Translations under genes and position numbers: made by a program | Assembly (NCBI GenBank): GCA_947579665.1 | Contig: OX388348.1 | Coordinates: 13,516,001 to 13,580,000 of the forward strand | Reading direction: 5' to 3' | Source: Sympetrum striolatum | Lineage: Eukaryota > Arthropoda > Insecta > Odonata > Libellulidae | Length of the DNA: 64,000 nt | Notes under the pieces: model-generated | The model's input: only the letters and a program-made list of their open reading frames with translations | What the model was told of the DNA's origin: nothing | Databases searched by the model: none | Shown here: positions 8,191 to 63,135 of the stretch, piece by piece | Numbering within the stretch: the first letter of the stretch is position 1 | Layout of the letters: each line of letters opens with the position of its first letter

Positions 8191-8267
8191 GGCCTCCTCC
8201 AGGAATCGAACCAGGGGCCGCTTTTACGAAAGACGAACGCGCTAGTCACGTTTCTATTCTGGAGCTC
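8191..8267 (-). other. tRNA-like sequence (SINE head)
   Basis: Read on the minus strand it contains an A-box-like GACTAGCGCGTTCGTC and a T-arm CCTGGTTCGATTCCTGG with good self-complementarity. The acceptor and anticodon stems are imperfect, so a tRNA-derived SINE or decayed tRNA is more likely than a gene. It lies just downstream of the R1 copy iii block, as a similar tRNA-like element does at 14.1 kb. Confidence 0.4.
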
Positions 8268-18003: not shown

Positions 18004-18036
18004 GAGTTCTAGCTCGACCTTCGTGGCGGTAGGACG
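18004..18036 (+). promoter_or_regulatory. Internal Pol II promoter of the LINE: Inr plus DPE
   Basis: If the A at 18005 is +1, the start reads AGTTC, close to the insect initiator core (TCA+1GTT). The bases GGACG at 18032-18036 then fall exactly at +28 to +32 and match the downstream promoter element consensus RGWYV. Drosophila jockey, Doc, F and I elements are known to use this Inr+DPE arrangement to start transcription at their own first base. The G at 18004 could be a cap-derived untemplated base. This argues that the 5' end is complete rather than truncated. Confidence 0.7.
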
Positions 18037-18154
18037 TGTTTTGCGTGAGCTGTTTACGGATAATTTTTGTGAGGAACTATCGGCAAGCGAGCTGTCGGCA
18101 GCCGGCGAGTTTTCGCCCAGCGGCCCCGTCAACTCGAGCAATACCTCGAGTCCG

Positions 18155-19729
18155 ATGGAGACATCGACTGCTCCAGGGATTACTCCCACACCTTTGTCAT
18201 CATCACCTGCATCATTTCCGGCACCCGGCATCAAGAACGTTATTCTCCCTCCTAGATTTACCGTCTCCGCGGGAATGTCAACGGCAAATCCATCCCCCAC
18301 GCCTGGTCTCTCCTCCCGCGACCCGCGACTTAAACGACTCGCTGAGGATACAATGGAGATCGCCAGCACCACCGAGGAGGAGGAATCATTTACTACTGTG
18401 AAGCCCAGGAGATATTTCCTCAACTTAGACGAGCAAACAGTTGCTCCGCTGGCTCTTAAAAATCGCTTCGAACCACTCGCGCCGTCTGAGGCGAAGAAAA
18501 CAAAACGCAACGCCCTTGATACTTCGGGAGGATGTCAAATGGAGGTACCCTCCCCTTCTATGCCATCCACCCCTGAGGCAGACGGGGAAACACAGCGGCC
18601 GGAACCGACCAGCGGGGCAAGGTCTCGCCCGCCTGCCCTTCAATTGTATGGGATTCTTAACATTAGGGCTTTAGCGAGGGATCTCCGAGAAGCGCTTAAT
18701 GGCGCCGATTTCGTGGCGACACGCGTTGGACTCCCGACTCCGTCGAACGTCGACTCGCGCGGGGAGGTTTGCCGAGTGTCAGTGAACTCCACGTGCGACT
18801 ACCGCAAGGCGAGGGAATTCCTCGACGGGCAAGGCATCGCCTACTCAACATGGGCTGAGCGGCAGGACCAGCTCCACTCCTTCCTTGTGCGCGGCTTGTC
18901 CACCGGAACCGCGAAGGAGGAACTGACAGAGGATCTTTTGGCGCTCGGCATTCCGGTGCGGAAGGCCTTCCAGCTCAGAGATAAGGAACAAAGAGCGCTC
19001 CCGCTTTTCGTTTTCTCGGCACCATCGACCGCTCAATGGAAACCCGCTGATATTTGCAGAATTACAGTGTTGTCATATTGTAGGGTGACTATCCGCCCCT
19101 ACAAACACCAGCAGCCGCAGATGTGCTTCCGGTGCAATAGGTTTGGGCATTCCTCAGCCCATTGTCACGCCGCCCCGCGCTGCTGGAAGTGCGCAGGTCC
19201 TCATCAAGGCCACGTCTGCACGAAACCACGAACCGAGGAAGCCCTTTGCTGCAACTGCGGCGGCGCGCACCCTGCGATGTCTCGCAAATGCCCAGTCTGG
19301 ATTGCCGCAAAAGAGAGGAAGATGCAATCTACATCCGCCAGCAGCCCCTCGCAGCGTCCGACACCAAATGCACCCACCTTCCAGCCTGCTTCTCCACCTA
19401 CCACCAACGCCTGGTCGAACTCAACACCACTCTTCGTGCCTTCGCAGGTCCAACCTCCGCGTAGGAAAACGCTAAATATGGAGTTCCCGTCCCTTCCCCA
19501 GCCATGCCGAAGCAATGAAGAAACAGCAGCCGAACTCAGCATTCCACTGCGGCAAAAGCAGAGAATATCGCCTGTTTCCAGTACCAGCGCCAAAACTCCT
19601 CACCCACCTGACGCCATCATCACAGCAATGGAGCAGATGATGGTCCGCCTTCAAGCAACCATCATCTCCCAATTCCAACAATTCGCCTTAAGCCTCCGCG
19701 ATCTCTTAGCACCGCGCAATGGACCCTAA
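18155..19729 (+). CDS. LINE ORF1: gag-like nucleic-acid-binding protein
   Basis: 524 residues from the ATG at 18155, which is the first ATG in the element. The frame is open without a stop back to the 5' end, so a non-AUG start upstream is possible. The N-terminal ~150 residues are Ser/Pro/Thr-rich and low in complexity. From about 160 there is an RRM-like/PRE_C2HC region (LYGILNI..., then STWAERQDQLHSFLVRGLS and RALPLFVF). Three zinc knuckles follow: C324-C327-H332-C337, C343-C346-H350-C355 and C365-C368-H372-C379. A Pro/Ser-rich linker and a C-terminal helix complete it. In Jockey elements this protein coats the RNA into a ribonucleoprotein. It would act in the cytoplasm and nucleus together with ORF2. 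No frame damage is seen. Confidence 0.9.
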   Translation: METSTAPGITPTPLSSSPASFPAPGIKNVILPPRFTVSAGMSTANPSPTPGLSSRDPRLKRLAEDTMEIASTTEEEESFTTVKPRRYFLNLDEQTVAPLALKNRFEPLAPSEAKKTKRNALDTSGGCQMEVPSPSMPSTPEADGETQRPEPTSGARSRPPALQLYGILNIRALARDLREALNGADFVATRVGLPTPSNVDSRGEVCRVSVNSTCDYRKAREFLDGQGIAYSTWAERQDQLHSFLVRGLSTGTAKEELTEDLLALGIPVRKAFQLRDKEQRALPLFVFSAPSTAQWKPADICRITVLSYCRVTIRPYKHQQPQMCFRCNRFGHSSAHCHAAPRCWKCAGPHQGHVCTKPRTEEALCCNCGGAHPAMSRKCPVWIAAKERKMQSTSASSPSQRPTPNAPTFQPASPPTTNAWSNSTPLFVPSQVQPPRRKTLNMEFPSLPQPCRSNEETAAELSIPLRQKQRISPVSSTSAKTPHPPDAIITAMEQMMVRLQATIISQFQQFALSLRDLLAPRNGP

Positions 19730-22433
19730 AACCACCACAAGAAGGGCACTCTCCATCCTCACATGGAATGTGGGCGGAGCTATTGTCCGGAAGACACCGG
19801 AGCTCCTACACTTCCTTGGGCAACAAAATTTTGACATCATTCTTCTGCAGGAGACACATTTGTCTCCACACACCCGATGGTCTACCCCTGGCTTCACAAT
19901 ATACCGAAAGGACCGCCCTGACAACCCGGATGGCAGCAGATCCAGCGGAGGGGGCGTCGCAATAATGGTCTCCAACAAAATTGCAGCGCGGCTTCTTGAC
20001 CCGCAGCCAACTTCACTCCATTCGCTAGAGACCATCACCATCGTCGCTAGCACATACCTGGGGGAAATGCAGTTCACCTCGTGCTACCTTCCACCACAGC
20101 ACCGCTTCCGGCAATCCTCCTTCGGGGATGTCTTCCTGCCAGGTATTCCTACCATTTTTGCGGGGGACCTTAATGCAAAGCACGGCGACTGGGGCTCCCT
20201 TAGAGACAATGCATCTGGCAGAGAGCTTCGCCGCTGGGCCACCACGAACCGGGTCCAGGTTCTCGGCCCAAGAGAACCCACCCGGTTCTCCCACACTGGG
20301 AAAGGAGATGTACTCGACATCTATCTCGTCAGCGCGTCCCCACCTCCAAGGACAATGTACACCATCCCGGCATTGACTAGCGACCACCTCCCAGTCGCAG
20401 CTTTCTTCGGAACATCACCACTCTTTCGACCCATCGCTACCAAAAGGAACCTCAGGAAGGCCAACTGGGAGGCCTTTGCTGAGGACTTAACAGCCCGTTT
20501 GTCATCACCAGGGAAGCTGGAAACTCCTGATGATGTCGATGCTGCAACACTCAACCTCGCTTCTAGCATCACTGCTGCTGCTGACGCCACCATCCCACGA
20601 AAACCTAGGGGATTCGGAGGGAGACTGGAACTTCCTCAAACCATCATCGCCTCCATTAGGGAGAAAAATAGGATCCGCCGCCGATGGACGCGCACTGGAG
20701 AACCGCATTTACGCCGGGAATTCCGGCGACTGCAGAGGGATATTCAGACTAGCATCTCTACCTGGAAAACCCAGATGTGGGAGAAGAAGATCGCCTCCAC
20801 TAAAACCCAGGACGGTTCTCTGTGGAAGTTCACCAAAGGCCTGACCCTCCGGAGTCATGCTACCATACCCACCGTAGAGCCGAGCACCATCACGGCGGAG
20901 GCCTTCGCTGACCACTTAGAGGACGCATTTTCTCCGAATCCAGGTCCTGAACTTCCTCAGATGCCTCCACATCAGCTTCCCATTAACACAGACCCGCCAA
21001 CAATCACCGCCATGGACGTGAAAGCGTCTCTCCGTCGCCTTAAGACTCGAAAAGCTCCCGGTCCGGACGGAATTGAAAACGAAATACTCCGAAGACTTCC
21101 GTCCGCGGCGGTTCTCTGGCTGGTATGCATCACAAATGCCATCATCAGACTGGGCCACTTCCCAGCTTTATGGAAAAGAGCAAAGATCATCCCGATCTTA
21201 AAAACTGGAAAGTCTCGCTCCTCCCCAGATAGCTTCCGCCCCATATCGCTGCTGGACGGACTGGGGAAGATTGTAGAAAGGACCATACTACCCTTTTTCC
21301 AGAGAACACTATCAGAAAGGAATATCCTCCCGGCGGAGCAATACGGCTTTAGAGAGGAGCACGCCACAACCCACCAACTTCTGCGCGTCCTGCAATTCGT
21401 CAGTGCTGCTTTCAACAACAAAAGGCACGTTGCAGCGGCCTTCTTCGACATCACCAAGGCCTTCGACCGAATGTGGCATGCTGGCCTTCTCCATAAGCTC
21501 CGTCGACTGGACTTTCCAACATGGCAGATAAACACCATCGCCTCATACCTCTCGGACAGGACCTTCCACGTTTTCTTCGGCGGGATCACCTCTACCACCA
21601 GAACCATCAGGGCGGGAGTTCCCCAGGGTAGCATCTGGGGGCCAATCTTGTTCAATATCTTCTGTGCGGACATTCCCACAAAGTTTTACGGCTGCATGAC
21701 AGCATTTTATGCTGACGATGCTGCGCTACTAGCGAATTCCTACTCCAGGAAACTTGCTGTAAAATACTTGCAGCGGGCCACCTACCAGCTTCTTGAATGG
21801 TACGACACCTGGAGGTTAGGGGTGAACTCCAAGAAGACACAGACCATTATCTTCTCAATGCTCCGACCGGCGGACGACCCGGACCCAATCATCGTCGGCG
21901 CTGAGGAAGTCCATTGGCGAAGCACAGCAGTCTACCTTGGAGTCACCCTCGACAGGCGACTCACTCTCCGCAATCATGCACAACAGGTTGCCATAAAAGC
22001 GAGGGTTCGCCGGAGGGTCCTCCTGCCGCTCCTAATGTCCCCGGACTTGCCGCTCCATGTTAGGCTGCACCTATACCAGGCAACCATCTTGAGTGCTCTT
22101 TTGTACGCCTCCCCCGCCTGGAGCGGGTTCCTGACCCGCACCACGTGGGAAATTCCATCTAAGGCGGAGAGAGCCGTCCTTCGCACCATCCTGCAGCTTG
22201 GCTGGCGCTTTGCTAATCCCACCAACTACATATTGACTGGAGCCACCCCAATTCAGGAATTGGCAACCATACGAGCGAAGGCCTTCTTTGCCCGCCTTCC
22301 TACCAGAAATTATGCGCACCTCCAACGACTGGCCTTGGACACCCCTCAGCGGCGCGACTTCTTCCGGAGGCCCATCTCCTCGCAAGGAGGAACTTTGGCA
22401 ATCCCCCCAAAAGGGAGGAAAAAGTGGAGGTAA
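19719..22433 (+). CDS. LINE ORF2: endonuclease and reverse transcriptase
   Basis: 904 residues, starting at the ATG that overlaps the last 11 bases of ORF1 in the +1 frame. The endonuclease (about 10-230) shows N17, E45, Y123, D150 and N152 (GDLNAKH), D200 and the S221-D222-H223 triad (SDHLPV). These are the expected catalytic positions of AP-type LINE endonucleases. The RT (about 440-720) shows KAPGPDGI (445-452), FRPIS (506-510), QYGFR (541-545), FFDITKAFD (575-583), GVPQGS (633-638) and the active-site FYADD (663-667, Asp pair at 666-667). Thumb-like YLGVTLD and SALLYASPAW motifs follow at 739-801. No RNase H is present, as is usual for Jockey. The protein nicks target DNA and primes cDNA synthesis on it. 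All key residues are present. Confidence 0.93.
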   Translation: MDPKTTTRRALSILTWNVGGAIVRKTPELLHFLGQQNFDIILLQETHLSPHTRWSTPGFTIYRKDRPDNPDGSRSSGGGVAIMVSNKIAARLLDPQPTSLHSLETITIVASTYLGEMQFTSCYLPPQHRFRQSSFGDVFLPGIPTIFAGDLNAKHGDWGSLRDNASGRELRRWATTNRVQVLGPREPTRFSHTGKGDVLDIYLVSASPPPRTMYTIPALTSDHLPVAAFFGTSPLFRPIATKRNLRKANWEAFAEDLTARLSSPGKLETPDDVDAATLNLASSITAAADATIPRKPRGFGGRLELPQTIIASIREKNRIRRRWTRTGEPHLRREFRRLQRDIQTSISTWKTQMWEKKIASTKTQDGSLWKFTKGLTLRSHATIPTVEPSTITAEAFADHLEDAFSPNPGPELPQMPPHQLPINTDPPTITAMDVKASLRRLKTRKAPGPDGIENEILRRLPSAAVLWLVCITNAIIRLGHFPALWKRAKIIPILKTGKSRSSPDSFRPISLLDGLGKIVERTILPFFQRTLSERNILPAEQYGFREEHATTHQLLRVLQFVSAAFNNKRHVAAAFFDITKAFDRMWHAGLLHKLRRLDFPTWQINTIASYLSDRTFHVFFGGITSTTRTIRAGVPQGSIWGPILFNIFCADIPTKFYGCMTAFYADDAALLANSYSRKLAVKYLQRATYQLLEWYDTWRLGVNSKKTQTIIFSMLRPADDPDPIIVGAEEVHWRSTAVYLGVTLDRRLTLRNHAQQVAIKARVRRRVLLPLLMSPDLPLHVRLHLYQATILSALLYASPAWSGFLTRTTWEIPSKAERAVLRTILQLGWRFANPTNYILTGATPIQELATIRAKAFFARLPTRNYAHLQRLALDTPQRRDFFRRPISSQGGTLAIPPKGRKKWR

Positions 22434-31922: not shown

Positions 31923-32174
31923 CACTCAAAGTAACAATTGATAGTATTGACTAATAGATAGATTTGCCTAATGGTTGACTTTTGGTGTCGTATTTTAACA
32001 ATATCAGGGTAATTATTGTTACTATTATCTTATTATTATGGTTGCTTAAATTTCAGTAGTATATGTAGTTATATTTATTTAGTTATATACAGATATTTAA
32101 AACTCAAAGTAACAATTGATAGTTGTCTTTATTGTTAACTTTTTGGTATCGAATTTGAACAATGTTAAGTATCA
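31923..32174 (+). repeat. 178-bp tandem duplication, second copy split by an element
   Basis: ACTCAAAGTAACAATTGATAGT-type sequence occurs at 31924 and again at 32102, and downstream landmarks keep the same offset. The first unit runs 31923-32100 and ends with the ATTATTATGGTTGC and ATTTCAG block. In the second unit the sequence stops at 32174, where the 860-bp element begins. It resumes at 33035 with AATTATTATGGTTGC and ATTTCAG. The first unit therefore serves as an empty-site reference. Confidence 0.7.
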
Positions 32175-33034
32175 TTTTTACTTTCTCCCTATACGTAGTA
32201 TAGAGAAAGTATTGCATTCGCAAAAAAATTCGACCTCCAGATTTCGACGGAAATAGATGTTTTGGGGCCCATAGAGCATGTTTTAGCTATTTTCCCGAAC
32301 ATGTCTGTCTGTGTGTCTGTCTGTGGTTAAAAAGTTTGTGTGCGCTCTATCTTCAAAAGCAATTATCCGATCATTTTCAAAATTCATATTTAGAATTTTT
32401 CTAACAATACCAAGAGTTGATTAGTTTTTGGAGAATATCGCTTAACCGGAAGTTACGGTTTATCCGGAACAAAATTTTGTTTCTTAAATATCTCTGTAAG
32501 AATGCAATATAGGTATATACAATTACATACAAAAGTTATAGATAATGTACTTTACTAGAACTTTTGTATAAAACATTTTTTCGTAACACTGATTGTTTAG
32601 GAGTTATTCTTCAATAATGGTTAACCGGAAGCTGTTGTTTACCCAGAAAAGGAAGTTTTTCATACATATCTCTGTCAAAATGCAATATAGGTATATACAT
32701 TTACGTACAAAAGTTGTAGATTATGTATTTTACTACAACTTTTGTATGAAACATTTTTTCGTAACACTGATTGTTTAGGAGTTATTCCCCAATAATGGTT
32801 AACCGGAAGTTGTTTACCCAGAAATGGAAGTTTTTCATACATATCTCGATCAGAATGCAATGTAGGTATATACAATTATGTACCAAAGTTGTAGATAATG
32901 TTTTTTACTACAAAGCTTGTATGAAACATTTTCCTGTAACACTCATTGTTTTGGAATTAGTTATATATTACCGGCATAGGCTTCTGTTTTCAATAAATAT
33001 GGAGAAAGTCATGTGTTGGCCACATCAGATTTTT
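32175..33034 (+). mobile_element. Non-autonomous element family E1, copy A (860 bp)
   Basis: Starts TTTTTACTTTCTCCC with an imperfect inverted pair (ACTTTCTC...GAGAAAGT). A GTCT/GT microsatellite follows at about 32,301-32,325. Then come ~178-bp internal tandem repeats marked by TTAACCGGA at 32442, 32621 and 32799. The 3' part carries GGAGAAAGTC, the inverse of the 5' start, and it ends GGCCACATCAGATTTTT. There is no coding capacity. A subterminal inverted repeat, a central microsatellite and central tandem repeats resemble DINE/HINE (Helentron-related) elements, but I could not identify a definitive 3' hairpin. It lies cleanly inside a local tandem duplication. Confidence 0.75.
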
Positions 33035-33080
33035 GTTTAATTATTATGGTTGCATACATTTCAGTTATACTTTTAGTACG
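33035..33080 (+). repeat. Remainder of the interrupted 178-bp tandem unit
   Basis: Continues the second tandem unit after the E1 insertion: the AATTATTATGGTTGCATAC and ATTTCAG landmarks correspond to 32028-32060 of the first unit. Confidence 0.6.
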
Positions 33081-34837: not shown

Positions 34838-34952
34838 CTTTGATTTTATATATATATCTATTATATATAGATGCTTCTCCGGATTCATTCATATATCTAT
34901 TATATATAGATGCTTCTCCGGATTCATTCATGTATCCATATATATATATAGC
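34838..34952 (+). repeat. ~40-bp repeat pair plus TA run bordering the B-box array
   Basis: Two adjacent copies of a unit containing ATCTATTATATATAGATG and CTTCTCCGGATTCATTCA, then a TATATA run. The same unit recurs at 38,246-38,330 (plus orientation) and once inverted at about 40,570-40,610. In all three places it sits at the edge of a 1.08-kb unit, so it seems to belong to the array boundary. Confidence 0.7.
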
Positions 34953-36030
34953 GAGGATACAAATTCACAGGCTAAACCACAATCGTCATTGACCTGAAAT
35001 TTTTACGACATATTGGCCATAACGTGTTACCTCAAGAAAAATTGCGATTTTGAACCTCAGTGTCATTGGTTCGATTCCAGAGGGCCCCAAAGTCCCGATT
35101 TTTCCCGTTTAAATGCATTGCCGTGATATTCGGGAATTTTTAAAATATACTTCCCGGATAGGTAGAGAATCAAAACTCATGGAGCCTATATATATGGTCA
35201 TGATCTATCGAAAACATAAATGAGTTTTACGGAAAATATCCTGGGTTCGATGCTAGGTCGAGGCAAAAATCGGCCGTTTAAAATGCATTGTGGCGATTTT
35301 TAAGATTTTTTTTGGACCCTTTCCCGATGGCAAGGAAACTTGAAATTCGGCATGAGGTTGGAGATCATACATATATTTCATAATCAAATTTTACATATTC
35401 GCCGATGGTCCTTGGTTCGATCCCAGAGGGCCATTTACATTCCTCCATGCATTTCTTATGGAGATAACAGTAAAAAGTTTTAGGTACTTCCCGGCATAAT
35501 ATCGACTTCAAAATTTTTATGAAATAAGATGAAGTCCTAATAAGTCATACTGTGCATTCACAGCTACCAATATTTCCTGGGTTCGACACCAGGCGTCTCT
35601 ACAATCAGGAGATTATCCGATTTTTAAGAATTAATTTAAACCCCTCCACAGTAATATTAAAACATGAAATTAGGCATATAGATAGAGAACATAGATACAT
35701 TTCAAAAACGAGTTTTAAATTTCCTAGATCGTCCTTGGTTCGAATCCAGAGAGCCATTTACATTATTGAAAAGTAGGACGTCGTTTGAGGCAGTTTGAGC
35801 CAATATATCTGCTTGAATTTTCACACATAGTAAGAGATGGTGATTTTCTGTTGTGCTGCATAGTAAGTTTACCATTAAGACCCAGGTTCGATGCCAGACG
35901 ATTAAATTGCAGCGAATTTTAAGAATATTTTCAATCCATTTTTTCTTTTGACGGCCTTCCCGATATGATGCCGACATGAAATTAGTGTTTTCGATCTGCT
36001 TGCAGTATGCAAGCTACATTTTACTCGTAT
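34953..36030 (+). repeat. B-box array unit 1 (1.08 kb, six monomers)
   Basis: Begins GAGGATACAAATTCACAG and ends with the hairpin GCTTGCAGTATGCAAGC followed by TACATTTTACTCGTA. TTCGA cores lie at 35070, 35246, 35416, 35582, 35739 and 35887 (spacing 176, 170, 166, 157, 148). Each is embedded in GG-TTCGA-NNCC, the tRNA T-arm/B-box pattern. The monomers share further landmarks such as CTTCCCG, GAAACTTGAAATT, GGCAT and GCATTT, so they derive from one ancestral monomer. No coding potential. The plus-strand frames here are chance. Confidence 0.88.
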
Positions 36031-36035
36031 ACCTA

Positions 36036-36060
36036 TATAGATAGATAGATAGATAGATAG
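36036..36060 (+). repeat. (GATA)n microsatellite at the unit 1/2 junction
   Basis: Six to seven GATA copies directly bridge the end of unit 1 (CTCGTATACCTATATA) and the start of unit 2 (GGATACAAATTC). Confidence 0.85.
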
Positions 36061-37136
36061 GATACAAATTCACAGCCTAAACTACAAGCGTCATTGATCT
36101 GAAATTTTTATGACATATTGGCCATAACGTGAAACCCCCAGGAAAAAAGCGACTTTGATCCTCAGTGTCATGGGTTCGATTCCAGAGGGCCCCAAAGTCC
36201 CGATTTTTCCCGTTTAAATGCATTGCTTTGATTTTCGGGAATTTAAAAAAAATACTTTCCGGATAAGTAGAGAATCGAAACTCAAGGAGCCTATATATAT
36301 GGTCATCATCTATTGAAAACATAAATGAGTTTTACGGAAAATATCCTGGGTTCGATGCTAGGTTGGGGCAAAAATCGGCCGTTTAAAATGCATTGTGGCG
36401 ATTTTTAAGATTTTTTTTGGACCCCTTTCCGATGGCATGGAAACTTGAAATTTAGCATGGGGTTAGAAATCATAAATATATTTCATAATAAATTTTTTTG
36501 TATTCGCTTATGGTCCTTGGTTCGATCCCAGAGGGCCATTTGCACTCCAGAATGCATTTCTTATGGGGATAACTTAAACAAATTTTAGGTACTTCCCGGC
36601 ATGCTATCGACTTAAAACTTAGCATGATAGAAGAACCAGACTTAACAAATCAAACAATGCATTCATAGCTATCAATGTGTCCTGGGTTCGACACCAGGTG
36701 TCTCTGCAATCAGAAGTTGATCCGATTTTTAGGAATTATTTTGAAACCTTTCCTAATAATATAGAAACTTGAAATTTGGCATATAGATTGAGATCAATAA
36801 TAACTTTCAGAAACTTTTTTAAATTTCCAAGATCGTCCTTGGTTCGAGTCCCGAGAGCCATTTACATTCGTGAACATTAGAGCGTCTTTTGAGGCAGTTG
36901 TAACCAATATTTCTGCTTGAATCTTCACACATAGTTAGAGATGGTGATCTTCTATTGTGTTTCATAGTAGGTTTTCCAGTAAGACCCGGGTTCGATTCCA
37001 GACGATGAAATTTCATCGAATTTTAAGAAAAAATTAAATACTTTTTTTTTTCTTATGAGGACCGTCCCGATGTGATGCCGATATGAAATTAGTATTGCCG
37101 ATCTGCTTGCAGTATGCAAGCTACATTTTACTCGTA
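36059..37136 (+). repeat. B-box array unit 2 (1.08 kb, six monomers)
   Basis: A direct repeat of unit 1 with the same length. TTCGA cores are at 36175, 36351, 36521, 36687, 36843 and 36991 (176, 170, 166, 156, 148). The 3' hairpin GCTTGCAGTATGCAAGC and the CTCGTATACC end are retained. The fourth monomer has a near-perfect CCTGG/CCAGG stem around GTTCGACA. Confidence 0.88.
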
Positions 37137-37142
37137 TACCTA

Positions 37143-37166
37143 TATAGATAGATAGATAGATAGGAT
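37143..37166 (+). repeat. (GATA)n microsatellite at the unit 2/3 junction
   Basis: Five to six GATA copies between the end of unit 2 and the start of unit 3, as at the previous junction. Confidence 0.8.
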
Positions 37167-38240
37167 ACTAATTCACAGCCTAAACCACTAGCGTGATTGA
37201 TTTGAAATTTTTACGACGTATTGGCCATAACGTGTAACCGCCAGAAAAATTGCGATTTTGATCCTCAGGGTCATGCGTTCGATTCCAGAGGGCCCCAAAG
37301 TCGCGATTTTCTCCATAAGAATACATGGCGGGGATTTACGAAAATTTTTTTAAGGTACTTCCCGGGGAGAGAAAGATTTGAAACTCGAGGGATCGCTAGA
37401 AGCCGTGCGTATCCAACGAAAATCAGAAAAACATCTTAGAATATAGTCCATGGTTCGATGCTTGGTCGGGGCAAAAATCGGCCGTTTAAAAAGCATTACG
37501 GCGATTTTGAAGATTTTTTTTGGATCCTTTCCCGATAACATGGATATTCGAAACTCGGCACGTGGATAGATATCATGAATATACTTCATAATCAAATTTT
37601 ACATGTTCACTGATGGTCCTTGGTTCGATCCCAGAGGGCCATTTGCACTTCTCAATGCATTTCTTACGGAGACAACGGAAACAAAATTTAGGTACTTTCC
37701 GACATGCTATCAACTTCAAACTTTGCATGATACAAGAGCAAGTCATTACAAATCAAACTGTGCATTCACAGCTTGCAATACGTCCTGGGTTCGACACCAG
37801 GTGTCTCTGAAATCAGAATTTGATCCGATTTTTAGGAATTATTTTGAAACCTTTCCCACTAAAATAGAAACTTGAAATTCGGCATATAGATAGAGATCAT
37901 AAATATCTATCAGAAACATATTTTAGAATTCCACGATCGTCCTTGGTTCGAATCCCGAGAGGCATTAACATTCGTGAAAATTAGAACGTTTTTTGAGGCA
38001 GTTTTAGCCAATATTTCTGCTTGAATTTTCACATATAGTTAGAGATGGTGATCTTCTATTGTGTTTCATACTAGGTTTACCAGTAAGACCCGGGTTCGAT
38101 GCCAGACGATGAAATTTCAGCGAATTTTAAGAAAAAATTAAATCCTTTTTTTTTCTTTTAAAGACCGTCCCGATATGATGCCGATATGAAATTAGTATTG
38201 CCGATCTGCTTGCAGTATGCAAGCTACATTTTACTCGTAT
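37162..38240 (+). repeat. B-box array unit 3 (1.08 kb, six monomers)
   Basis: Third direct copy. TTCGA cores are at 37278, 37454, 37624, 37790, 37947 and 38095 (176, 170, 166, 157, 148). In the first two monomers the text around the box differs from units 1 and 2 and is closer to units 4 and 7 (for example TCTAGAAGCC-type versus TAGATGCC-type stretches). The array thus contains at least two unit subtypes. Confidence 0.87.
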
Positions 38241-38337
38241 ATATATATATATATCTATTATATATAGACGTTTCTCCGGATATCTATTATATATAGATGC
38301 TTCTCCGGATTCATTCATGTATCCATATATATATATA
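38241..38337. repeat. Tail-to-tail junction between units 3 and 4
   Basis: A TA run, two copies of the ~40-bp boundary repeat (TATCTATTATATATAGA and TTCTCCGGAT landmarks), and another TA run separate the 3' end of unit 3 from the inverted 3' end of unit 4. The flanks (ATTTTACTCGTA and TACGAGTAAAAT) make this the centre of a large imperfect palindrome. Confidence 0.8.
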
Positions 38338-39415
38338 TACGAGTAAAATGTAGCTTGCATACTGCAAGCAGATCGGCAATACTAAATTCATATCGGCATC
38401 ACATCGGGACGGTCTTCATAAGAAAAAAAAGGATTTAATTTTTTCTTAAAATTCGCTGAAATTTCATCGTCTGGCATTCAACCCGGGTCTTACTGGTAAA
38501 CCTACTATGAAACACAATAGAAGATAACCATCTCTAACTATGTGTGAAAATTCAAGCGAAAATATTGCCTACAACTGCCTCAAAAGACGCTCTAATTTTC
38601 ACGAATGTAAATGGCTCTCGGGACTCGAACCAAGGACTATCTCTAAAATTTAAAAAATGTTTCGGAAAGTTATTAATCATCTCAATCTATATGCCAAATT
38701 TCAAGTTTCTATATTATTGGGAAAGACTTCAAAATAATTCCTAAATATCGGATCAACTTCTGATTGCAGAGACACCTGGTGTCGAACCCAGGACACATTG
38801 ATAGCTGTGAATGCATAGTTAGATTTGTTAAGACTTGCTCTTCTATCATGCAAAGTTTGAAGTCGATAGCATATCGGGAAGTACCTAAAATTTGTTTCCG
38901 TTATCTCCCTAAGAAATGCATTGAGGAATTTAAATGTCCCTCTGGGATCGAACCAAGGACCATCAGCGAATATGTAAAATTCGATTATGATATATTTTTA
39001 TGGTATCTAACCTCATACCGAATTTCAAGTTTCTATGCCATCGGGAACGGGTCCAAAAAAAATCTTCAAAATCGCCGCAATGCATTTTAAACGGCCGATT
39101 TTTGCCCCGGCCTAGCATCGAACCAAGGACAATATTCGTAGATGTCTTTATGGTTTTCTTTAGATATGCACGGCATCTAGCGATCCCTTGAATTTCAAAT
39201 CTCTCCTTTTCCGGGAAGTGCCTCAAAAAAATTTTCAAATATCCCCGCCATGTATTCTTATGGACAAAATCGCGACTTTGGGGCCTTCTGGAATCGAACC
39301 CATGACACCGAGGTTCAATGTCGGCTTTTTCCTGGAGGTTACACGTTATGGCCAATATGTCGTAAAAATTTCAAGGCATTGGCACTTGTGGAACATGGTT
39401 AGAATTTTGATCCCC
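38338..39415 (-). repeat. B-box array unit 4, inverted
   Basis: The same 1.08-kb unit on the minus strand. Core positions (plus coordinates of TCGAA) are 38477 (mutated to TTCAA), 38625, 38782, 38948, 39118 and 39294. The spacing 148, 157, 166, 170, 176 is the exact mirror of the plus copies. The start near 39,360-39,415 resembles unit 7 (GTGGAACATGG and ATTTTGATCCCCTAT) rather than units 1-2. Confidence 0.87.
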
Positions 39416-39440
39416 TATATATAACTTATATATATATAGG

Positions 39441-40551
39441 TACGAGTAAAATGTAGCTTGCATACTGCAAGCAGATCGACAACACTAATTTCATGTCGGC
39501 ATCATATCGGGAAGGCCGTCAAAAGAAAAAAAAATGCATTGAAAATATTCTGATTATTCGCTGCATTTTATTAGTCCGGCATCGAACCCGGGACTTCCTA
39601 GTGATACTTACTATGCAGCACAATAGAAGATCACCATCTCTAACTATCTGTGAAAATTCAAGCAGAAATATTATCTGAAACTGCATCGAACGACGTCCTA
39701 CTTTTCCCTTATATTTCTTATGAGAGAAATGATAATGTGGTCTGGCATCGAACCCAGGAATATTACGGTCTTCTGAAAACTGTTTTCTTAAACCAGTTTT
39801 AACCATACATCTTCCAGCCAAGCACGAACTTCCTATCATTTCGATAAGTGCATCAAAAAAATAATGAAATACAAACCCTATGTATTTTAAACGGGAGACA
39901 TATTTACCGCCCGGCATCGAACCCGGGACTTTCTGGTGAAACTTCCTATGCAACATAATAGAAGATATTATTCTTTAACTATGTGCGAAAATTCAAGCAG
40001 AAATATTGGCTGCAACTGCCTCAATCGAAGTCTTACTTTTCCCTTATATTCCTTATGAGAGAAAAGTTAATGTGCTCTGGCATCGAACCCAGGAATAGTA
40101 CGGTCTTATGAAAATTTTTTTCTTAAACTAATTCTTACCTTACACTTTCCGGCTAAGCACGAACTTCCTATTTTTTCGAGAAGTGCATCAAAAAAAATAA
40201 TGAAAAACAGCTCCCATGTATTTTAAAGGGCAGATCTTTGCATCGTCCTAGCATCGAAACCAGGATATTTTTTGTGAAAGTCATTGATGTTTTCGAAAGT
40301 CCAAGACCATAAATATAGACACCTTGAGTTTTATTTCTCTACCTTTCCGGAAACTATTTTTTTTTAATTCCCGAAAATCACGGCAATGCATTTAAACGGG
40401 AAAAATCGGGACTTTGGGGCCCTCTGGAATCGAACCTATGACACTGAGGATCAAAGTCGCTTTTTTCCTGGGGGTTATACGTTATGGCCAATATGTCATA
40501 AAAATTTCAATTCAATGACGCTTGTGGTTTAGCCTGTGAATTTGTATCCTA
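39441..40551 (-). repeat. B-box array unit 5, inverted, rearranged
   Basis: 1.11 kb, also six boxes, but with different spacing: 39582, 39748, 39917, 40083, 40254 and 40430 (166, 169, 166, 171, 176). Two distinct modules alternate, one with the AATAGAAGAT landmark and the other with CTTATGAGAGAAA. The pair is duplicated at an offset of about 335 bp. The last two modules match modules 2 and 1 of the other units. Modules 3-5 have therefore been replaced by a duplicated dimer. Confidence 0.85.
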
Positions 40552-40610
40552 TCTATATAGCTATATATATGAATGAATCCGGAGAAGCATCTATATATAA
40601 TAGATATAGA

Positions 40611-41689
40611 GAGGATACAAACTCACAGCCTAAACCACAAGAGTGATTGAGCTGAAATTTTTACGGCGTATTGGCCATAACGTGTAACCACCAGAAAAAT
40701 TGCGATTATGATTCTCAGTGTCATGGGTTCGATGCCAGGGGGCTCCAAAGTCCCGATTTTTCCCGTTTAAATGCATTGCTTTGATTTTCGGGAATTTAAA
40801 AAAAATACTTCCCGGATAGGTAGAGAATCAAAACTCAAGGAGCCTTTATATATGGTCATGATCTATCGAAAACATAAATGAGTTTTACGGAAAATAACCT
40901 GGGTTCGATGCTAGGTCGATGCAAAAATCTGCCGTTTAAAATGCATTGTGGCGATTTTTAAGATTTGTTTTGGACTCTTTCCCGATGGCATGGAAACTTG
41001 AAATTCGGTATGAGGTTAGATATCATAAATATATTTCATAATCGATTTTTATGCTTTCCCTGATGTTCCTTGGTTCGATCCCAGAGGGCCATTTACATTC
41101 CTCAATGCATTTCTTATGGAGATAACGGAAACAAGTTTAAGGTACTTCCCGGCATGCTATCGACTTAAAACTTTGCATGATAGAAGATCCAGTCTTAACA
41201 AATCTAACTATGCATTCATAGCTATCAATGTGTCCTAGGTTCGACACCAGGTGTCTCTGCAATCAGAAGTTGATCCGATTTTTAGGAATTATTTTCAAAC
41301 CTTTCCCAATAATATAGAAACTTGAAATTTGGCATATAGATTGAGATCAATAATAACTTTCAGAAACATTTTTTAAATTTCCAAGATCGTCCTTGGTTCG
41401 AGTCCCGAGAGCCATTTACATTCGTGAACATTAGAGCGTCTTTTGAGGCAGTTGTAGCCAATATTTCTGCTTGAATTTTCACACATAGTTAGAGATGGTG
41501 ATCTTCTATTGTGTTTTATAGTAGGTTTTCAGTAAGACCCGGGTTCGATTCCAGACGATGAAATTTCAGCGAATTTTAAGAAAAAATTAAATCCTTTTTT
41601 TTTTCTTAAGAGGACCGTCCCGATATGATGCCGATATGAAATTAGAATTGCCGATCTGCTTGCAGTATGCAAGCTACATTTTACTCGTA
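40611..41689 (+). repeat. B-box array unit 6 (1.08 kb, six monomers)
   Basis: Back in plus orientation and close to unit 2. TTCGA cores are at 40728, 40904, 41074, 41240, 41397 and 41544 (176, 170, 166, 157, 147). It is preceded by an inverted ~40-bp boundary repeat and ends with the hairpin and CTCGTACC. Confidence 0.87.
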
Positions 41690-41724
41690 CCTATATATAT
41701 ATATTCATATATATACACATTCAT

Positions 41725-42800
41725 AGGGGATCAAAATTCTAGCCATGTTCCACAAGTGCCACCGAGTTGAAATTTTTACGACGTTATGGCCATGACGTGT
41801 AACCTCCAGGAAAAAGCCGACATTGAACCTCGGTGTCATGGGTTCGATTCCAGAAGGCCCCAAAGTCCCGATTTTCCCCATAAGGATACATGGTGAAGAT
41901 TTTCGAAAAATTTTTTGAAGCACTTCCCGGAAAGGTAGAGAATTGAAATTCGAGGGATCGCTAGATGCCGTGGATATCTAACGAAAATCAAAAAGACATC
42001 TTCGAATATTGTCCATGGTTCGATGCTAGGTTGTGGCAAATATCGGCCGTTTAAAATACATTGCGGCGATTTTTAAGATTTTATTTGGACCATTTGCCGA
42101 TGGCATGGAAACTTGAAATTTGGCATGAGGTTAGATATCATGGATATATTTTATAATCAAATTTTACATGTTCGCTAATGGTCCTTGGTTCGATCCCAGA
42201 GGGCCATTTGCACTTCTCAATGCATTTCTTACGGAGATAACGGAAACAAAATTTTGGTACTTCCCGACATGCTATCGACTTCAAACTTTGCATTACACTA
42301 GAGCAAATTTATACAAATCAAACTGTGCATTCACAGCTTACAATATGTCCTGGGTTTGACACCAGGTGTCTCTGCAATCAGAAGTTGCTCCGATTTTTAG
42401 GAATTATTTTGAAACCTATCCCAATAATATAGAAACTTGAAATTCGGCATATAGATAGAGATCATAAATAATTCTCAGAAACACCTTTTAGATTTCCAAG
42501 ATCGTCCTTGGTTCGAATCCAGAGAGCCATTTAAATTCGTGAAAATTAGAACGTCTTTTGAGGCAGTTGTAGCCATTATTTCTGCTTGAATTTTCACACA
42601 AAGTTACAGATGGTGATCTTCTATTGTGTTTCATAGTAGGTTTACCAGTAAGACCCGGGTTCGATGCCAGACGATGAAATTTCAGCGAATTTTAAGAAAA
42701 AATTAAATCCATTTCTTTCTTTTGAGGACCGTCCCGATAGAATGCCGATATGAAATTAGTGTTGTCGATCTGCTTGCAGTATGCAAGCAACATTTTACTC

Positions 42801-42803
<3 letters not shown>
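41725..42803 (+). repeat. B-box array unit 7 (1.08 kb, six monomers)
   Basis: The last unit. Cores are at 41843, 42019, 42189, 42355 (mutated to TTTGA), 42512 and 42660 (176, 170, 166, 157, 148). The 5' part belongs to the second subtype (GATCAAAATTCTAGCCATG). It ends GCTTGCAGTATGCAAGC-AACATTTTACTCGTA and runs straight into a TA microsatellite. Confidence 0.87.
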
Positions 42804-42863
<60 letters not shown>

Positions 42864-48690: not shown

Positions 48691-51265
48691 GTGGAAAGAG
48701 AGAGGTATTGGAACGTTGGATTACGGGTGCAATCGCTGTTTGGTTTGCTAAATGTAGGAGTATGTACTGTCGGAGTTAGAAAATTCGATTTCAAGTTCTT
48801 TTTCTTTCTTCTTCTCATTCTTTGGCTTCATATTTTTGCTAACAGAATATAGACGTATGGTGGAGAATATATACATTAGTTGTTCATATGCATGAATTAA
48901 TGTATAAATTACAATGTAATATCCTACATCATTATTATTAATATCATATATATTATATTATATTATATTATTAAATAATATATTGGATAATATTAGTAAA
49001 TTTTGTATTACGTATATGTCTTGACTACTGTCAGAGGGAGAGGTTTCCCTCCCTCCGTGGGCAAATGCCTGACAGGTATAGTGTTTACCCCTCAATTTAT
49101 ATTTATATTGACTATCTATATATTGCTTGACCATGTACGACTGTATGAATGTATGTTTGTATTATATGTAATGTCCAACCACTGCCACCAGATTGTTAAT
49201 CTACTTGTAGTGTAATTATAATAATCATTGTAACAATTTGTTTATCTATTGTATCTATGCTGCAGGAAGAGAAATAAGTGGAAAATTTTAATTCTCAGGA
49301 TATGTTCGTTGTCGGTTCAGTAATAGATTTCTTGAGGAAAGACGGAATTGTGAAAATATCAGACGGGGCCAGGAATCGAACCTGGAATATTTTATCCATT
49401 GCGATATTTCCTAGGTGCCTCTATGTACAATGATACCTTAGCTCTTTTCCTTTCAATAGATTTCCTCTTCACCATATAAGTATTGGAGCTAAATTATTCA
49501 AAAATCTTTCATTACTTGAACAATAGGCTTCAAAGCTGAGTGTGATTTTATGCTTGAATCTTTTCCTTTCTTTTAGCACAGAGAGTACACATAGATATAA
49601 CATTAAAAGGAGCACTTTGTGTTATGTTTGAAAACTAGGGCGAATAGTAATATTTTGGCCCTTAGGATTATGGAAATAAATTCCAATTTTTCAAGCAAGA
49701 GGGTTTTGTATTTGGCCAAGAAATACCAGCTTTTATGCTGTGTTTCTGTAGTATTCTACATACTTTTGCTGTTATACCTTAAGATGGGAAAAAGCAAGAT
49801 GTGGTACGTTTGTGAGATTTCCACGAACCGCCAAATATTTATGAGCAACTTTGCAGAAAATATTACTTTTACGGAGACTTTATAACTTTTATTTCCTAAA
49901 TTCCAAAGAATAAATTGAAATTTATAGAAATATGTTGCAATACAGAAGTAGACGGATATTAAATAACAGAAATTTTTAGTATTTCAAACTTCATCAAATG
50001 AAATAAATTAAAACTCTTTCATGTATTACGACATTGACACGACGACACGACACGACTTACGACGATATTGCGACAGAAAACGTCAAAGTTAGCATATCAA
50101 GATAGATATTTTTATCAATAAATGTTTCTCTTTATCGATACATATATTCATTTAGAAATGAGCAGGAGAGCACGTGAATAATTTTCATAACATATGAAAT
50201 TAACGTTGAAGATGAACTAAAGTAGGATTGATTTATAAATTTCAATCATCTTAAACCAATCATTACTTCAGAAAGAGACTAATCGTTATAGTACAAATAA
50301 TAATCAATAAACATTCAAAATTTTCAATCTGATATTGTAAATCCTAGATGATTAGACGTAGATTTCCTTCTTTTGTGATATCCGGATTCGTATCTATTGA
50401 TGTATAATTATAATAAAATTATAATTATTTTCATACCTTTCCCCCAGTTCTATTTTAATGACTTTTGTGAGTAAAGTATCATCCAATATGTTTTAAAGTT
50501 TGTTACGAGCAGCTTTATCTTCTTTTCCAAAAGAATTGGCATTTTTTGCGTCCCACCAAAAGATTTACAACTCCCACTAACATAAGACCCGCTTTGTCTA
50601 TTTTCCATAGCTTTAAGACTCCTAATTGCCATTTTGAAAATTTCCTCGTACTTCCAGCACGTTGTAATCTCAGCTTTGTCACTCCTAGTCACGATATCAA
50701 CGAAAACGGATTGATTCATCTACACGGGCCGAAAAGTAGCGATCACAGCAAAGTAAATTGCTCAGAATCTTTCAGCGAATGAAAAAACGTCCATCATCAA
50801 CAAGCTCATAATAGTTCGTGACAGCCATGTTGACCTATTTCACATCTTTCTTATGAAGTGTAAGGCTGTGACAAGTCCGTGACTCAGCAGTTTTCGGATC
50901 ATTCCCAGGTGCTCGGAAGTTGGAGATAATGTTACAAAAGAGAATGGCTTGGACGCATATGCTGCGTCCGCTGGTAGCTTTGGGCGCACTGCAGAGCTGG
51001 ATATTTTTATTGGATTCCATTTACTCCAGTAGCATAGGATGTATGAAGGAGAACTTAGTCCATATCAATCAAACTTCTATTTTTTTTCTGATTGCAACGA
51101 GTGATCAATTTTTAGCGAAAAAGACGTTTTGCACAATTTTAGAGGGATTCAGTACCAATATATGACTATTTTTGCATTGTTTTGGGATTTAATTTAAGAT
51201 TTATTTATTTTTAAACAATATGCTCGCAGTTAGTCGCAAGGACAGGTGATGACGTTAACTTATAA
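48691..51265. other. Unassigned AT-rich DNA
   Basis: Contains a TATTA-rich low-complexity stretch (48,920-48,990) and a tRNA-like 3' half (49,364-49,425, listed separately). No protein motif seen. Confidence 0.4.
49364..49425 (-). other. tRNA-like 3' half
   Basis: On the minus strand CCAGGTTCGATTCCTGG forms a perfect T-arm-like hairpin followed by CCCCGTCT. No A box is recognisable. Probably a SINE or tRNA remnant. Confidence 0.3.
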
Positions 51266-52142
51266 AAAAATCTGATGTGGCCAACACGACTTTCTCCGTA
51301 TTTATTGAAAACATAAGCCTATGCCGGTAATATATAAATAACTCAAAAACAATGAGTGTTACAGGAAAATGTTTCATACAAGCTTTGTAATAAAAAACAT
51401 TATCTACAACTTTGGTACATAATTGTATTTACCTAAATTGCATTCTGATAGATATATGTATGAAAAACTTCCTTTTCTGGGTAAACAACAACTTCCGGTT
51501 AACCATTATTGAAGAATAACTCCTAAACAATCAGTGTTACGAAAAAATGTTTCATACAAAAGTTGTAGTAAAAAACATTGTCTACAACTTTGGTACATAA
51601 TTGTATATACCTACATTGCATTTTGACAGAGATATGTATGAATAACTTCCATTTCTGGATTAACAACAACTTCCGGTTAACCATTATTGGGGAATAAATC
51701 CTAAACAATCAGTGTTACGAAAAAAGGTTTTTTACAAAAGTTGTAGTAAAGTACATTATCTACAACTTTTGTATGTAATTGTATATACCTATATTGCATT
51801 CTTACAGAGATATTTAAGAAACAAAAATTTGTTCCGGATAAACCGTAACTTCCGGTTAAGCGATATTCACCAAAAACTAATCAACTCTTGGCATTGTTAG
51901 GAAAATACTAAATATGAATTTTGAAAATGATCGGATAATTACTTTTTAAGATAGAGCGCACACAAACTTTTTAACCACAGACAGACAGACAGACAGACAG
52001 ACACACAGACAGACATGTTCGGGAAAATAGCTAAAACATGCTCTATGGGCCCCAAAACATCTATTTCCGTCGAAATCTGGAGGTCGAATTTTTTTGCGAA
52101 TACAATACTTTCTCTATACTACGTATAGGGAGAAAGTAAAAA
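51266..52142 (-). mobile_element. Non-autonomous element family E1, copy B (inverted, 877 bp)
   Basis: The reverse complement of copy A over its whole length: the GGCCACATCAGA-type 3' end at 51,266, tandem TTAACCGGAAG repeats, an expanded (CAGA)n microsatellite at 51,977-52,014 and the ACTTTCTCCCTATACG start at 52,142. Identity with copy A is high by eye, so the two insertions are probably not old. Confidence 0.78.
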
Positions 52143-52231
52143 TCAATTCAAACAATATTTCTATGAATTAATACAATATTGCAACTATAATAATTTTCAG
52201 TCTAAGCTGGGTTTACATAAGAATCTACAAG

Positions 52232-52919
52232 CAGTGCACACTACGGTGGATCGAAAAAGCGTTTTCTTCGAAATCCGAACAACGGCTAATGCTTAAAGTT
52301 TGTGTTTGGTGGTACTTATATAAAAAAATTCAGCTCAATCGGATTATGTCCTGAGCCTGCGAATTTTAGTCAAAAGTTTTATATTTTTTCATTTTTCCTG
52401 ATGGTTTCTCAACGTTTCCGAAGTGATTTAATGGCAAAGAAGTACATATATTGCTTGGTTGCTGCTTAATATCAAAGATTTAGTGCGTTTGAATCAAGGA
52501 AAATGGATTCTCAGTTCTCCAAAATTCGTTAAAATACGCAAAATATACAAAAATCTTACGGATGTTGGTTAGACAGTGGGGTGGGTCGTTTTATATTTTT
52601 TACTGATAGAATCATTATCTAATCCATTTTCCTGGATTAAAACGTACTAAATCTTTGATATCAAACAGCAAACAAGCAATATATGCATTTTTTTGCTGTT
52701 GAATCACTTCGGAAACGTTGAGAAACCATCAGGAAAAAAATGAAAACATGACATATTCACAAAAATTAAAAATTTTGACTAAAATTCGCAGCCACAGGAC
52801 ATAATCTGATCGAGTTGAATTTTTTTATACGTTACAAGGACCACCAACCACAAACTTTAAGCATTAGTCGGTGACGGATTTTGAAAAAAAGTTTTTTCGA
52901 TCCACCCTACTGCGCACAG
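52232..52919. mobile_element. Foldback element with ~270-bp inverted arms
   Basis: Both ends are inverted copies (CAGTGCACACTACGGTGG versus CTGTGCGCAGTAGGGTGG). Matching continues inward: ATCGAAAAA, GCTTAAAGTTTGTG, CCTGATGGTTTCTCAACG with TTTCCGAAGTG, and GGAAAATGGA. The arms leave a centre of only about 100 bp. If the outer 11 bases are host sequence, TA dinucleotides at 52242 and 52908 would fit a Tc1/mariner target duplication. If they belong to the element, no duplication is evident. No coding capacity, so it is non-autonomous. Confidence 0.8.
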
Positions 52920-61943: not shown

Positions 61944-63135
61944 CTTCAAAAAGGCTTCAAGCGATGTTTGATTTGACTGTATTAATACGTCATTCTCTGA
62001 GCATATTCGAAAAAACTAAATGTAATGTACGTCATTGCATTCAATTTCTAAAACAAATTTAAATATATGTTCACTCATTCCCTTTTAAAGTTCCGAGTAT
62101 GTATTATACATTCAAGAAAATCTCCTTCAATGCAAGTAGTAGCAAGTTTGCGTATCTATACGAATAGAGTGAGCATACAAAGCAAGGCAGATATCTAGTT
62201 CAGGTGGATGACGGAGGTCACAATAACCTTCCCGATACTCTCTCTCCCTCAAGATGAGAGTTAGAGGAAGTTTGGACAATGACGAATAAGCGAAAGTGGT
62301 ACGTTAGGCAAGTAAATTGATGATGGATAAGGCGGATGTTCAAAGCTTGCCTGTTTGCTCAGAGTCACGAGGAATGATACACTCTTATGACTCAAGTAAC
62401 GATTTTCTCCATTATAAAGAAACTTTAGATATTAATAAACATAGTTAAGTATATCTTATAGACTACAAAGTTCTTAAATAGCAAACAAAGAATACTTGGC
62501 TTCTTACTTGCCTTGAAAATAACGAAAACAAGATAAGAGAGTTCCTTATCCTTACATTTTTCTATTAGATTTCCGTTTTTGTGATAAACTAGAAGAGAAA
62601 CATGGTCAAAATGATGTTGAGTTTTCATGAAAAGTTACTATTGGATCTTGTAAGAATTTTAATAAGGAATAATAGTAAATGTTGGTGATTACTTTGGAGC
62701 TATAAAAAATATTAAACACTAGAAAACATTATTATTATGTTTGCATTATAACTGTAGTTGAGTTTGGAATCTTCTGTTTTAAAATGAATCCTAATTTCTC
62801 TGAAGGGAGATGAACTGAATAAACATTTGTTTTCGGATCTTTCGTAAGGTAGAAGCGTACCATCAAATTATATTTGGATCATCCTTGAATTTATAATTGA
62901 GAAACTAAGAATGGTCGCCTATTAGACAAAGAGATGACACAATTTCAGATAACGAGATCACTAAGTTTATCTTGGTCTCGTTTGCACGTGCAGCTTTTTG
63001 TGGTGACAATCTCTAAGAATGCTTACCATTAAAATGAGACGAATAACTCTTCTACCTTAAATAACTTTGCTTCTAAAGTACTCCCTACCGTAATATATTT
63101 TGTAATCTGCATATTTCCAGGCATTGAATAAGTGT
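61944..63135. other. Unassigned AT-rich DNA
   Basis: No motif, repeat or tRNA-like sequence I can support. Confidence 0.4.

Follow-up and report, generated by a model that had tools for sequence, protein, structure and literature searches.

What is a repeat array whose seven units each carry six copies of a B-box-like motif, and how did it arise? The question is posed by a 64,000-nucleotide stretch of Sympetrum striolatum DNA (GenBank assembly GCA_947579665.1, contig OX388348.1, positions 13,516,001 to 13,580,000 of the forward strand), called the window here in its full length, in which seven units of about 1.08 kb follow one another at 34955-42805. An original prediction, made from the letters alone, compared the array to a higher-order repeat of the alphoid type and offered three guesses about its nature: a platform for TFIIIC, a satellite derived from a tRNA or a short interspersed nuclear element (SINE), or the internal repeats of a rolling-circle element. 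Among the three it is the last that our data support, by the element ends, the A|T junctions and an autonomous partner. We assign a probability of roughly 0.94 to the reading that the array consists of seven non-autonomous Helitrons, which are derived from an autonomous Helitron of about 9.7 kb and are inserted in and beside each other.

The description of the array itself proved correct. Its boundaries had been given accurately within 2 bp, and the seven units with six motifs each indeed provide 42 GGTTCGA-type motifs, of which 40 have an intact TTCGA core. The core is broken at position 6 of unit 4 and at position 4 of unit 7, while CGTTCGA in unit 3 and GTTTCGA in unit 5 keep the core and differ from GGTTCGA in a base ahead of it. 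The reported spacing of 176, 170, 166, 157 and 148 bp in six units was measured as 176, 170, 166, 156-157 and 147-148 bp. The unit that deviates is unit 5 (176, 171, 166, 169, 166), which is inverted just as unit 4 was said to be. With the strict B-box pattern GGTTCGANNCC we counted 37 matches in the window, 32 of them inside the array. The five sites beyond the array are situated at 2772, 4708 and 8445 on the plus strand and at 8202 and 49372 on the minus strand; some of them resemble tRNA-related repeats. We also compared the consensus monomers, taken as non-overlapping 148-bp pieces with the conserved block excised and regarded as clearly alignable at a z of 3 or more against shuffled sequence. 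Three of the 15 pairs reached this value (m3-m5 with z 17, m1-m2 with 6.6, m1-m5 with 3.9), and monomer 6 gave no clear match to any other. Homology beyond the core, and with it the notion that the monomers share other landmarks, is thus clear for these three pairs only.

Using unit 1 as the query, we searched the 1.35-Gb genome (544 contigs) and obtained 7784 first-look candidates (40 of them scored), spread over many contigs. Stretches of 9.9 kb were fetched around 20 copies and analyzed together with the window as 21 loci. The stretches were picked for holding a copy near unit 1 and are therefore biased for that type; the other copies therein are unselected. The 21 loci yielded 153 pieces, 109 of full length, 21 cut by locus edges and 23 internal partials. 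Each unit turned out to be the body of a separate transposon of about 1.14 kb that has fixed ends and is inserted between A and T. The 5' end is TCTATTATATATAG. In complete elements, a leader that starts with TCTATTATATATAGATGCTTCTCCGGAT and proceeds into a TA or GATA tract stands outside the 1.08-kb body, and the 3' end is GCTTGCAGTATGCAAGC(T/A)ACATTTTACTCG, which includes a hairpin with a 7-bp stem. The 17-nt hairpin is followed by 13 nt finishing in CTCG; its DNA fold of -7.2 kcal/mol (z -3.6) was equalled by 2 of 200 shuffles. CTCG closes 126 of 128 3' ends, and the base after the end is T in 127 of 127, one further end being located at a stretch edge. On the other side, 86 of the 113 leaders that we found are preceded by TCTAT, the other 27 are not, and the base ahead of this TCTAT is A in 83 of the 86 cases. 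The 5' TC, the A|T insertion without target duplication and the hairpin 13 nt from the 3' end are all hallmarks of Helitrons. At one locus (L010, plus strand 6310; minus strand 6977 on the reverse complement), elements of like type abut in two perfect 3'-to-5' joins, CTCG|TCTATT, an arrangement that circles would give or an insertion exactly ahead of another element.

If the units are inserted elements, their removal should give back the sequence into which they jumped. We excised innermost elements in silico (n=52, at 19 of the 21 loci) and looked for the joined 24-mer in uninterrupted form in the loci. The flanks left behind were A|T in 50 of the 52 removals, and for 25 of the 49 informative ones the joined 24-mer was found intact, with no duplicated base required. 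Shifting the right-hand flank by -7, -5, -4, -3, -2, -1, +1 or +3 gave 0/49 each. Shifts of +2 and +4 still gave 11/49 and 7/49, which is compatible with a TA repeat; +5 and +7 gave one each, and random flank pairs produced 370 matches in 2352 joined sequences. The excision of element 1 in the window joins CGGATTCATTCATATA to TATACCTATATAGATA, and the central 24-mer of this join is present without interruption in 7 of the 21 loci. Because the removal restores target sequence that is intact elsewhere, we conclude that the array was formed by nesting, with later copies inserted into the TA-rich 5' leaders of those already in place.

Amplification of the hexamer by local unequal exchange, as in alphoid satellites, could also have produced the regular six-part unit, the head-to-tail runs and the nucleosome-like spacing, and at one locus (L013) two neighbouring units do belong to one close type. 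The local homogenisation of neighbours that belongs to this reading is absent. Of 93 full main-type units (16 full units of the second type, that of unit 5, were excluded), 8 have their nearest relative within their own locus (4.25 with shuffled labels, P 0.10) and 85 have it elsewhere. The mean divergence amounts to 0.148 between neighbours, 0.155 within loci and 0.151 between loci. Moreover, units of opposite orientation, or of three or more body types, occur together in 18 of the 20 fetched loci (the exceptions are L014 and L027). Opposite orientations are seen in 13 of the 20, and L027 has just one unit. Together with the exact ends and the A|T junctions, these data leave the higher-order satellite of the original prediction with practically no credibility. 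The copies are clustered. More than one piece is present in 20 of the 21 loci, and the 20 stretches contain 126 further pieces, compared with about 1.1 expected if 7784 copies were spread uniformly; this copy number is possibly far too low, and even 30-fold more copies would leave a 3.7-fold clustering excess. The body of unit 1 is identical, gaps aside, to that of a copy on contig C39 (L009), and the bodies at L017 and L025 are likewise identical, so that two pairs at different loci point to recent movement. L014 contains, at 3200-3530, an apparently older and decayed unit next to younger ones.

We next asked for an autonomous partner. The Rep domain Helitron_like_N has 93 matches genome-wide, many of which reside in open frames of 1,500-1,900 amino acids (aa). 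Three RepHel groups were sampled by inspecting 2.4 kb downstream of one copy each (L031, L029, L030). The 3' end of the unit was found downstream of the group scoring about 160 bits (L031). RepHel groups III and IV were dismissed as partners, given that the 3' end differs at L029 and that no such end is present at L030, with one copy inspected for each. The L029 sequence displays, at about 2064-2100, a hairpin CCGTTGA-GAA-TCAACGG followed by GCACTCCGCTAG|T and also an inserted unit; this hairpin may be a candidate canonical CTAG Helitron end, in which case two end types would coexist in this genome. Within the 160-bit group, the 30-bp 3' end appears without mismatch in 4 of 6 stretches, and in three of them (C27:44.8, C46:30.26 and C5:16.07 Mb) it is preceded by the partner's own 3' region. 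The last 112 bp of the partner are 86% identical to the unit end. All four autonomous copies examined have a motif array upstream of the Rep domain, at a distance of 3-5 kb, the interval between array and RepHel having been read through in the C27 copy alone. The copy on contig C46 is a Helitron of about 9.7 kb (about 30251912 to 30261586) with the leader at its 5' side, then ten motifs, the first six of which are spaced by 176, 170, 166, 157 and 148 bp exactly as in the hexamer units, then a 1,756-aa RepHel open frame with the Rep domain, and finally the unit-type 3' end. A leader is present in two of the three copies read at the 5' side, namely C46 and C5:16 Mb. The RepHel of the C27 copy comprises 1,770 aa without a stop and combines Helitron_like_N (2.4e-45) with PIF1 (7.9e-58) in Pfam. 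It contains the Rep stretch RGLPHAH, a pair Y..KY and a Walker A motif. The best-scoring named relatives of the RepHel protein are insect proteins. The autonomous members thus possess the RepHel with Rep and PIF1 helicase that is diagnostic of Helitrons, and they share their termini with the non-autonomous elements. The hexamer elements appear to be derivatives that lost RepHel and retained the 5' region together with ~110 bp at the 3' end. Contig C46 additionally features two equal-scoring Rep matches on the same strand, 12,002 bp apart (58674151 and 58686153), possibly a tandem Helitron.

A number of observations weigh against this assignment. The 3' tetranucleotide is CTCG instead of the usual CTRR, and a 5' palindrome folds no better than shuffled sequence (equalled by 34/200). 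For 24 of the 49 informative removals no uninterrupted match was found, for which a length change of the TA tract may account. Within the window, only elements 1, 2 and 5 were removable, and the joined site was found intact elsewhere for element 1 and not for elements 2 and 5. Elements 3 and 4 are without a distal leader, which renders the nesting in the window unbalanced and incomplete; our guess is a later deletion. On the side of the partner, the sequence ahead of the end at C27:89.8 Mb aligns to the non-autonomous unit and not to the partner, C1:9.5 Mb did not align, and the C5:127 Mb stretch lies too far upstream to reach the end. The C27:44.8 Mb copy lacks its own leader, its 5' side being fused to another unit, and the RepHel frame of the C46 copy was taken from the genome-wide Rep-domain search, the parts of this element that were read being its two end regions. 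As for the tetranucleotide, CTRR is a hallmark and not a definition of the RepHel lineage; CTTG ends are known from truncated donors and in maize, according to the part of the Helraiser report considered here (PMC4778049). We class the element among the canonical Helitrons, as a variant: it has RepHel, insertion between A and T, the 5' TC and the 3' hairpin, while CTCG stands in place of CTRR.

An assignment to the Helentron/HINE (DINE-1) type was considered as well. Such elements, in the sections of the literature used here (PMC7492417, PMC4067079), are non-autonomous, carry internal repeats, a microsatellite and a 3' palindrome and make no target duplication, all of which would fit. Their ends do not fit. 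We found no subterminal inverted repeats (subTIRs) of at least 11 bp, the longest exact inverted match being 7 bp in the one copy analyzed; insertion took place between A and T (50/52 removals) and not into TT or a T-rich target, and the C27 RepHel shows no endonuclease domain in Pfam. We consider a Helentron origin very improbable.

For the canonical Helitron variant the following course of events may be envisaged. The derivative would have kept the 5' leader, the six-motif stretch and, including the 3' hairpin, the final ~110 bp, without the RepHel gene. RepHel, acting in trans, would nick at the 5' TC and copy one strand until the 3' hairpin and CTCG stop the process, and the copy would be joined between A and T. 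Since there is a (TA)n or GATA tract at the end of each leader, every copy would supply new A|T targets; later copies could then enter these leaders in either orientation, and the clusters would grow by nesting. In this scheme it is presumably the identified RepHel that moves the copies, and the nesting would reflect a target preference.

We also examined the motif. The original prediction had made itself dependent on an enrichment of B-box conservation over neighbouring positions, and this enrichment is clearly seen. In the alignment of the 93 units, the major base has a mean frequency of 0.980 over the six 11-base boxes compared with 0.893 elsewhere, and the boxes accumulated 1.42 parsimony changes per site versus 3.81, with none of 1078 circular mask shifts as low. 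On internal branches the numbers are 0.21 and 1.20 changes per site, again with 0/1078 shifts as low. The ratio of motif to other changes is 0.18 on internal and 0.46 on terminal branches, a split that suggests selection on source copies; the terminal branches include long ones. GGTTCGA is invariant over the six consensus motifs of the main type, five of which end in CC as in GGTTCGANNCC. In the second type it is retained in five of six, the final one being GGTTCGC. Collecting all boxes with at most one mismatch to GGTTCGA, we obtained 627 in register of 654 expected (331 distinct). Positions 0-6 are fixed to 95-100% in this collection, partly by the selection criterion, position 9 is C in 98% and position 10 is C in 81%, and the variable positions are the two N positions of GGTTCGANNCC. 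Outside the B box, a C at -4 (96%) as well as A and G at +11 (90%) and +12 (97%), respectively, are conserved too. At position +8 the commonest base is G (43%), a preference unlike that of tRNA T loops. The idea that a T-arm hairpin is kept as a structure was dropped, since pairing is barely above what the column composition gives (0.73 vs 0.69 at -2/+11). We detected no A box above shuffled sequence and no tRNA match in the array up to E 10. The tRNA- or SINE-derived satellite is consequently not supported, a tRNA-like head with A and B boxes being absent. The motif is a real conserved B-box-like element. We infer that it serves as a cis-acting protein-binding site needed for propagation, for which TFIIIC is one candidate, and TFIIIC may possibly bind it as judged from its sequence.

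What could be bound there? In one reading, which is compatible with the Helitron origin and concerns the motif only, TFIIIC is recruited by the motifs as genuine B boxes, in an extra-TFIIIC or insulator-like manner, and either the Helitron makes use of this or the host has domesticated it. The consensus motifs with their GGTTCGA starts and, in five of six, CC ends, the coincidence of the variable positions with the two N positions, the low number of internal-branch changes and the location of the array upstream of RepHel in the four autonomous copies all agree with it. The missing A box and tRNA match, the conserved positions beyond the B box and the G at +8 do not, and we hold this reading to be rather unlikely. 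Alternatively, and again with respect to the motif only, the protein bound may be RepHel itself or a host factor of replication or transcription, TFIIIC excepted, and the element would keep the site because it needs it in cis. The position of the array in the 5' part of the element, ahead of RepHel, agrees with this, as does the conservation of the motif in copies without RepHel, which is stronger on internal than on terminal branches. On the other hand, the 23 youngest copies are also poor in variants within the boxes (14 minor alleles versus 27.4 expected), a deficit that source-copy selection alone need not explain, and Helraiser requires its terminal sequences, as stated in the available portion of that study (PMC4778049). 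We see close to an even chance for this second reading. That a whole Helitron lineage, in its autonomous and its non-autonomous members, requires in cis an array of B boxes that TFIIIC truly binds is a bolder proposal and, in our estimation, quite improbable. If it were true, a rolling-circle DNA transposon would use a polymerase III (Pol III) assembly factor, be it to clear nucleosomes, to time replication or for targeting. Many ectopic TFIIIC sites, densely grouped in the Helitron clusters, would then be placed across the host genome.

The coordinates of units, elements, motifs and hairpins are compiled in the table. The inverted elements 4 and 5 have the leader at 38283 on one side and the element 6 body on the other. 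Leaders of the GACG type, like the one at 38254, also precede other elements that resemble element 7.

Table. Units, nested elements, B-box-like motifs and 3' hairpins of the array (positions in the window).
Feature	Position	Strand	Remarks
Unit 1	34955-36031	+	
Unit 2	36060-37138	+	
Unit 3	37163-38241	+	
Unit 4	38336-39413	-	inverted
Unit 5	39441-40549	-	inverted
Unit 6	40613-41689	+	
Unit 7	41728-42805	+	
Element 2, distal 5' leader	34857..34895	+	cut off by insertion of element 1
Element 1	34896..36027	+	non-autonomous Helitron, complete at 1132 bp; 34896-34954 is the leader, the hexamer body starts at 34955
Element 2, remaining leader and hexamer body	36028..37134	+	
Element 3, hexamer body	37135..38237	+	without distal leader
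Distal leader, GACG type	38254..38282	+	probably of element 7, judged by leader type
Distal leader of element 6	38283..38339	+	separated by elements 4 and 5; probable assignment, from the nesting
Element 4, hexamer body	38340..39442	-	inverted, without distal leader
Element 5	39443..40604	-	inverted, complete, 1162 bp; second body type, 335-bp dimer duplication
Element 6, hexamer body	40605..41687	+	
Element 7, hexamer body	41688..42801	+	
B-box-like motifs, element 1	35068..35895	+	six; starts 35068, 35244, 35414, 35580, 35737, 35885
B-box-like motifs, element 2	36173..36999	+	six; starts 36173, 36349, 36519, 36685, 36841, 36989
B-box-like motifs, element 3	37276..38103	+	six; the first is CGTTCGA
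B-box-like motifs, element 4	38473..39300	-	six; broken core in the sixth, which has the lowest coordinates: GGTTGAATGCC
B-box-like motifs, element 5	39578..40436	-	six; the second is GTTTCGA
B-box-like motifs, element 6	40726..41552	+	six
B-box-like motifs, element 7	41841..42668	+	six; the fourth is broken: GGTTTGACACC
3' terminal hairpin GCTTGCA-GTA-TGCAAGC, element 1	35998..36014	+	followed by the final 13 nt TACATTTTACTCG
Same 3' hairpin, other plus-strand elements	37105-37121, 38208-38224, 41658-41674, 42772-42788	+	
Same 3' hairpin, inverted elements	38353-38369, 39456-39472	-	

The window contains several further features. A long interspersed nuclear element (LINE) at 18023-22433 on the plus strand has open frames of 568 and 904 aa, the second with endonuclease and reverse transcriptase; its G+C content is about 0.55 compared with about 0.34 in the surroundings, and its best-scoring named relatives are arachnid and insect proteins, the top one from a pseudoscorpion. 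Two inverted copies of an element with 178-bp tandem repeats are found at 32174-33040 and 51260-52143. They are 93% identical, a related piece is located at about 63130-63602, and the outer ends of this element resemble short inverted CTTTCTCC/GGAGAAAG termini. An ordinary tRNA-Thr (TGT) gene occupies 8987-9059 on the minus strand, and 52234-52917 is a long imperfect palindrome with 75% identity to its own reverse complement over 719 aligned columns.

In summary, an array with the appearance of a satellite is explained by the nested insertion of a self-targeting transposon, whose autonomous source is present in the same genome, and a selfish element is seen to keep a short motif nearly unchanged while the surrounding sequence diverges. 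Should TFIIIC bind the motif, Pol III machinery would have been enlisted by a DNA transposon; should RepHel or another host factor bind it, the motif would reveal an internal sequence that Helitrons need in cis in order to move. Extra-TFIIIC sites have a B box without an A box, and the B-box sequence here, which is present and conserved, is like them in this respect; it differs in that six motifs per unit stand within a transposon. A search of a limited literature collection returned no paper on Helitrons together with the B box and TFIIIC. The comparison with described elements relies on parts of the papers cited. Helraiser, the canonical Helitron1 (PMC4778049), shares the 5' TC, the hairpin near the 3' end (19 bp there, 11 nt from the end), the A|T insertion and a RepHel with Rep and helicase. 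It ends in CTAG where we find CTCG, and the B-box-like array between 5' leader and RepHel and the self-nesting clusters are features of the element described here. The oyster Cg_HINE elements (PMC7492417) are likewise dispersed, non-autonomous and rolling-circle, with satellite-like internal repeats and a microsatellite. They have Helentron ends with subTIRs and a T-rich target in place of Helitron ends, whereas our array is also contained in the autonomous partner and has a nearly invariant motif. DINE-1/HINE elements (PMC4067079) resemble ours in being non-autonomous, with a microsatellite, a 3' stem-loop and no target duplication; here, there is no subTIR and the target is A|T rather than TT. 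Helitrons within Helitrons, with multiple termini, are known from nested maize Helitrons (PMC3288121) and self-inserted FoHelis (PMC5148889). In our case, 20 of 21 loci are composed of several pieces, and the insertion occurs into the element's own TA/GATA leader. The earlier statement that no such family has been described thus remains valid for the hexameric layout, while internal satellite-like repeats (PMC7492417, PMC4067079) and nested Helitrons (PMC3288121, PMC5148889) had been reported. Relative to these elements, as the cited parts present them, two features are new: one conserved B-box-like motif array that is common to autonomous and non-autonomous members, and clusters that arise from insertion into the element's own TA leader.

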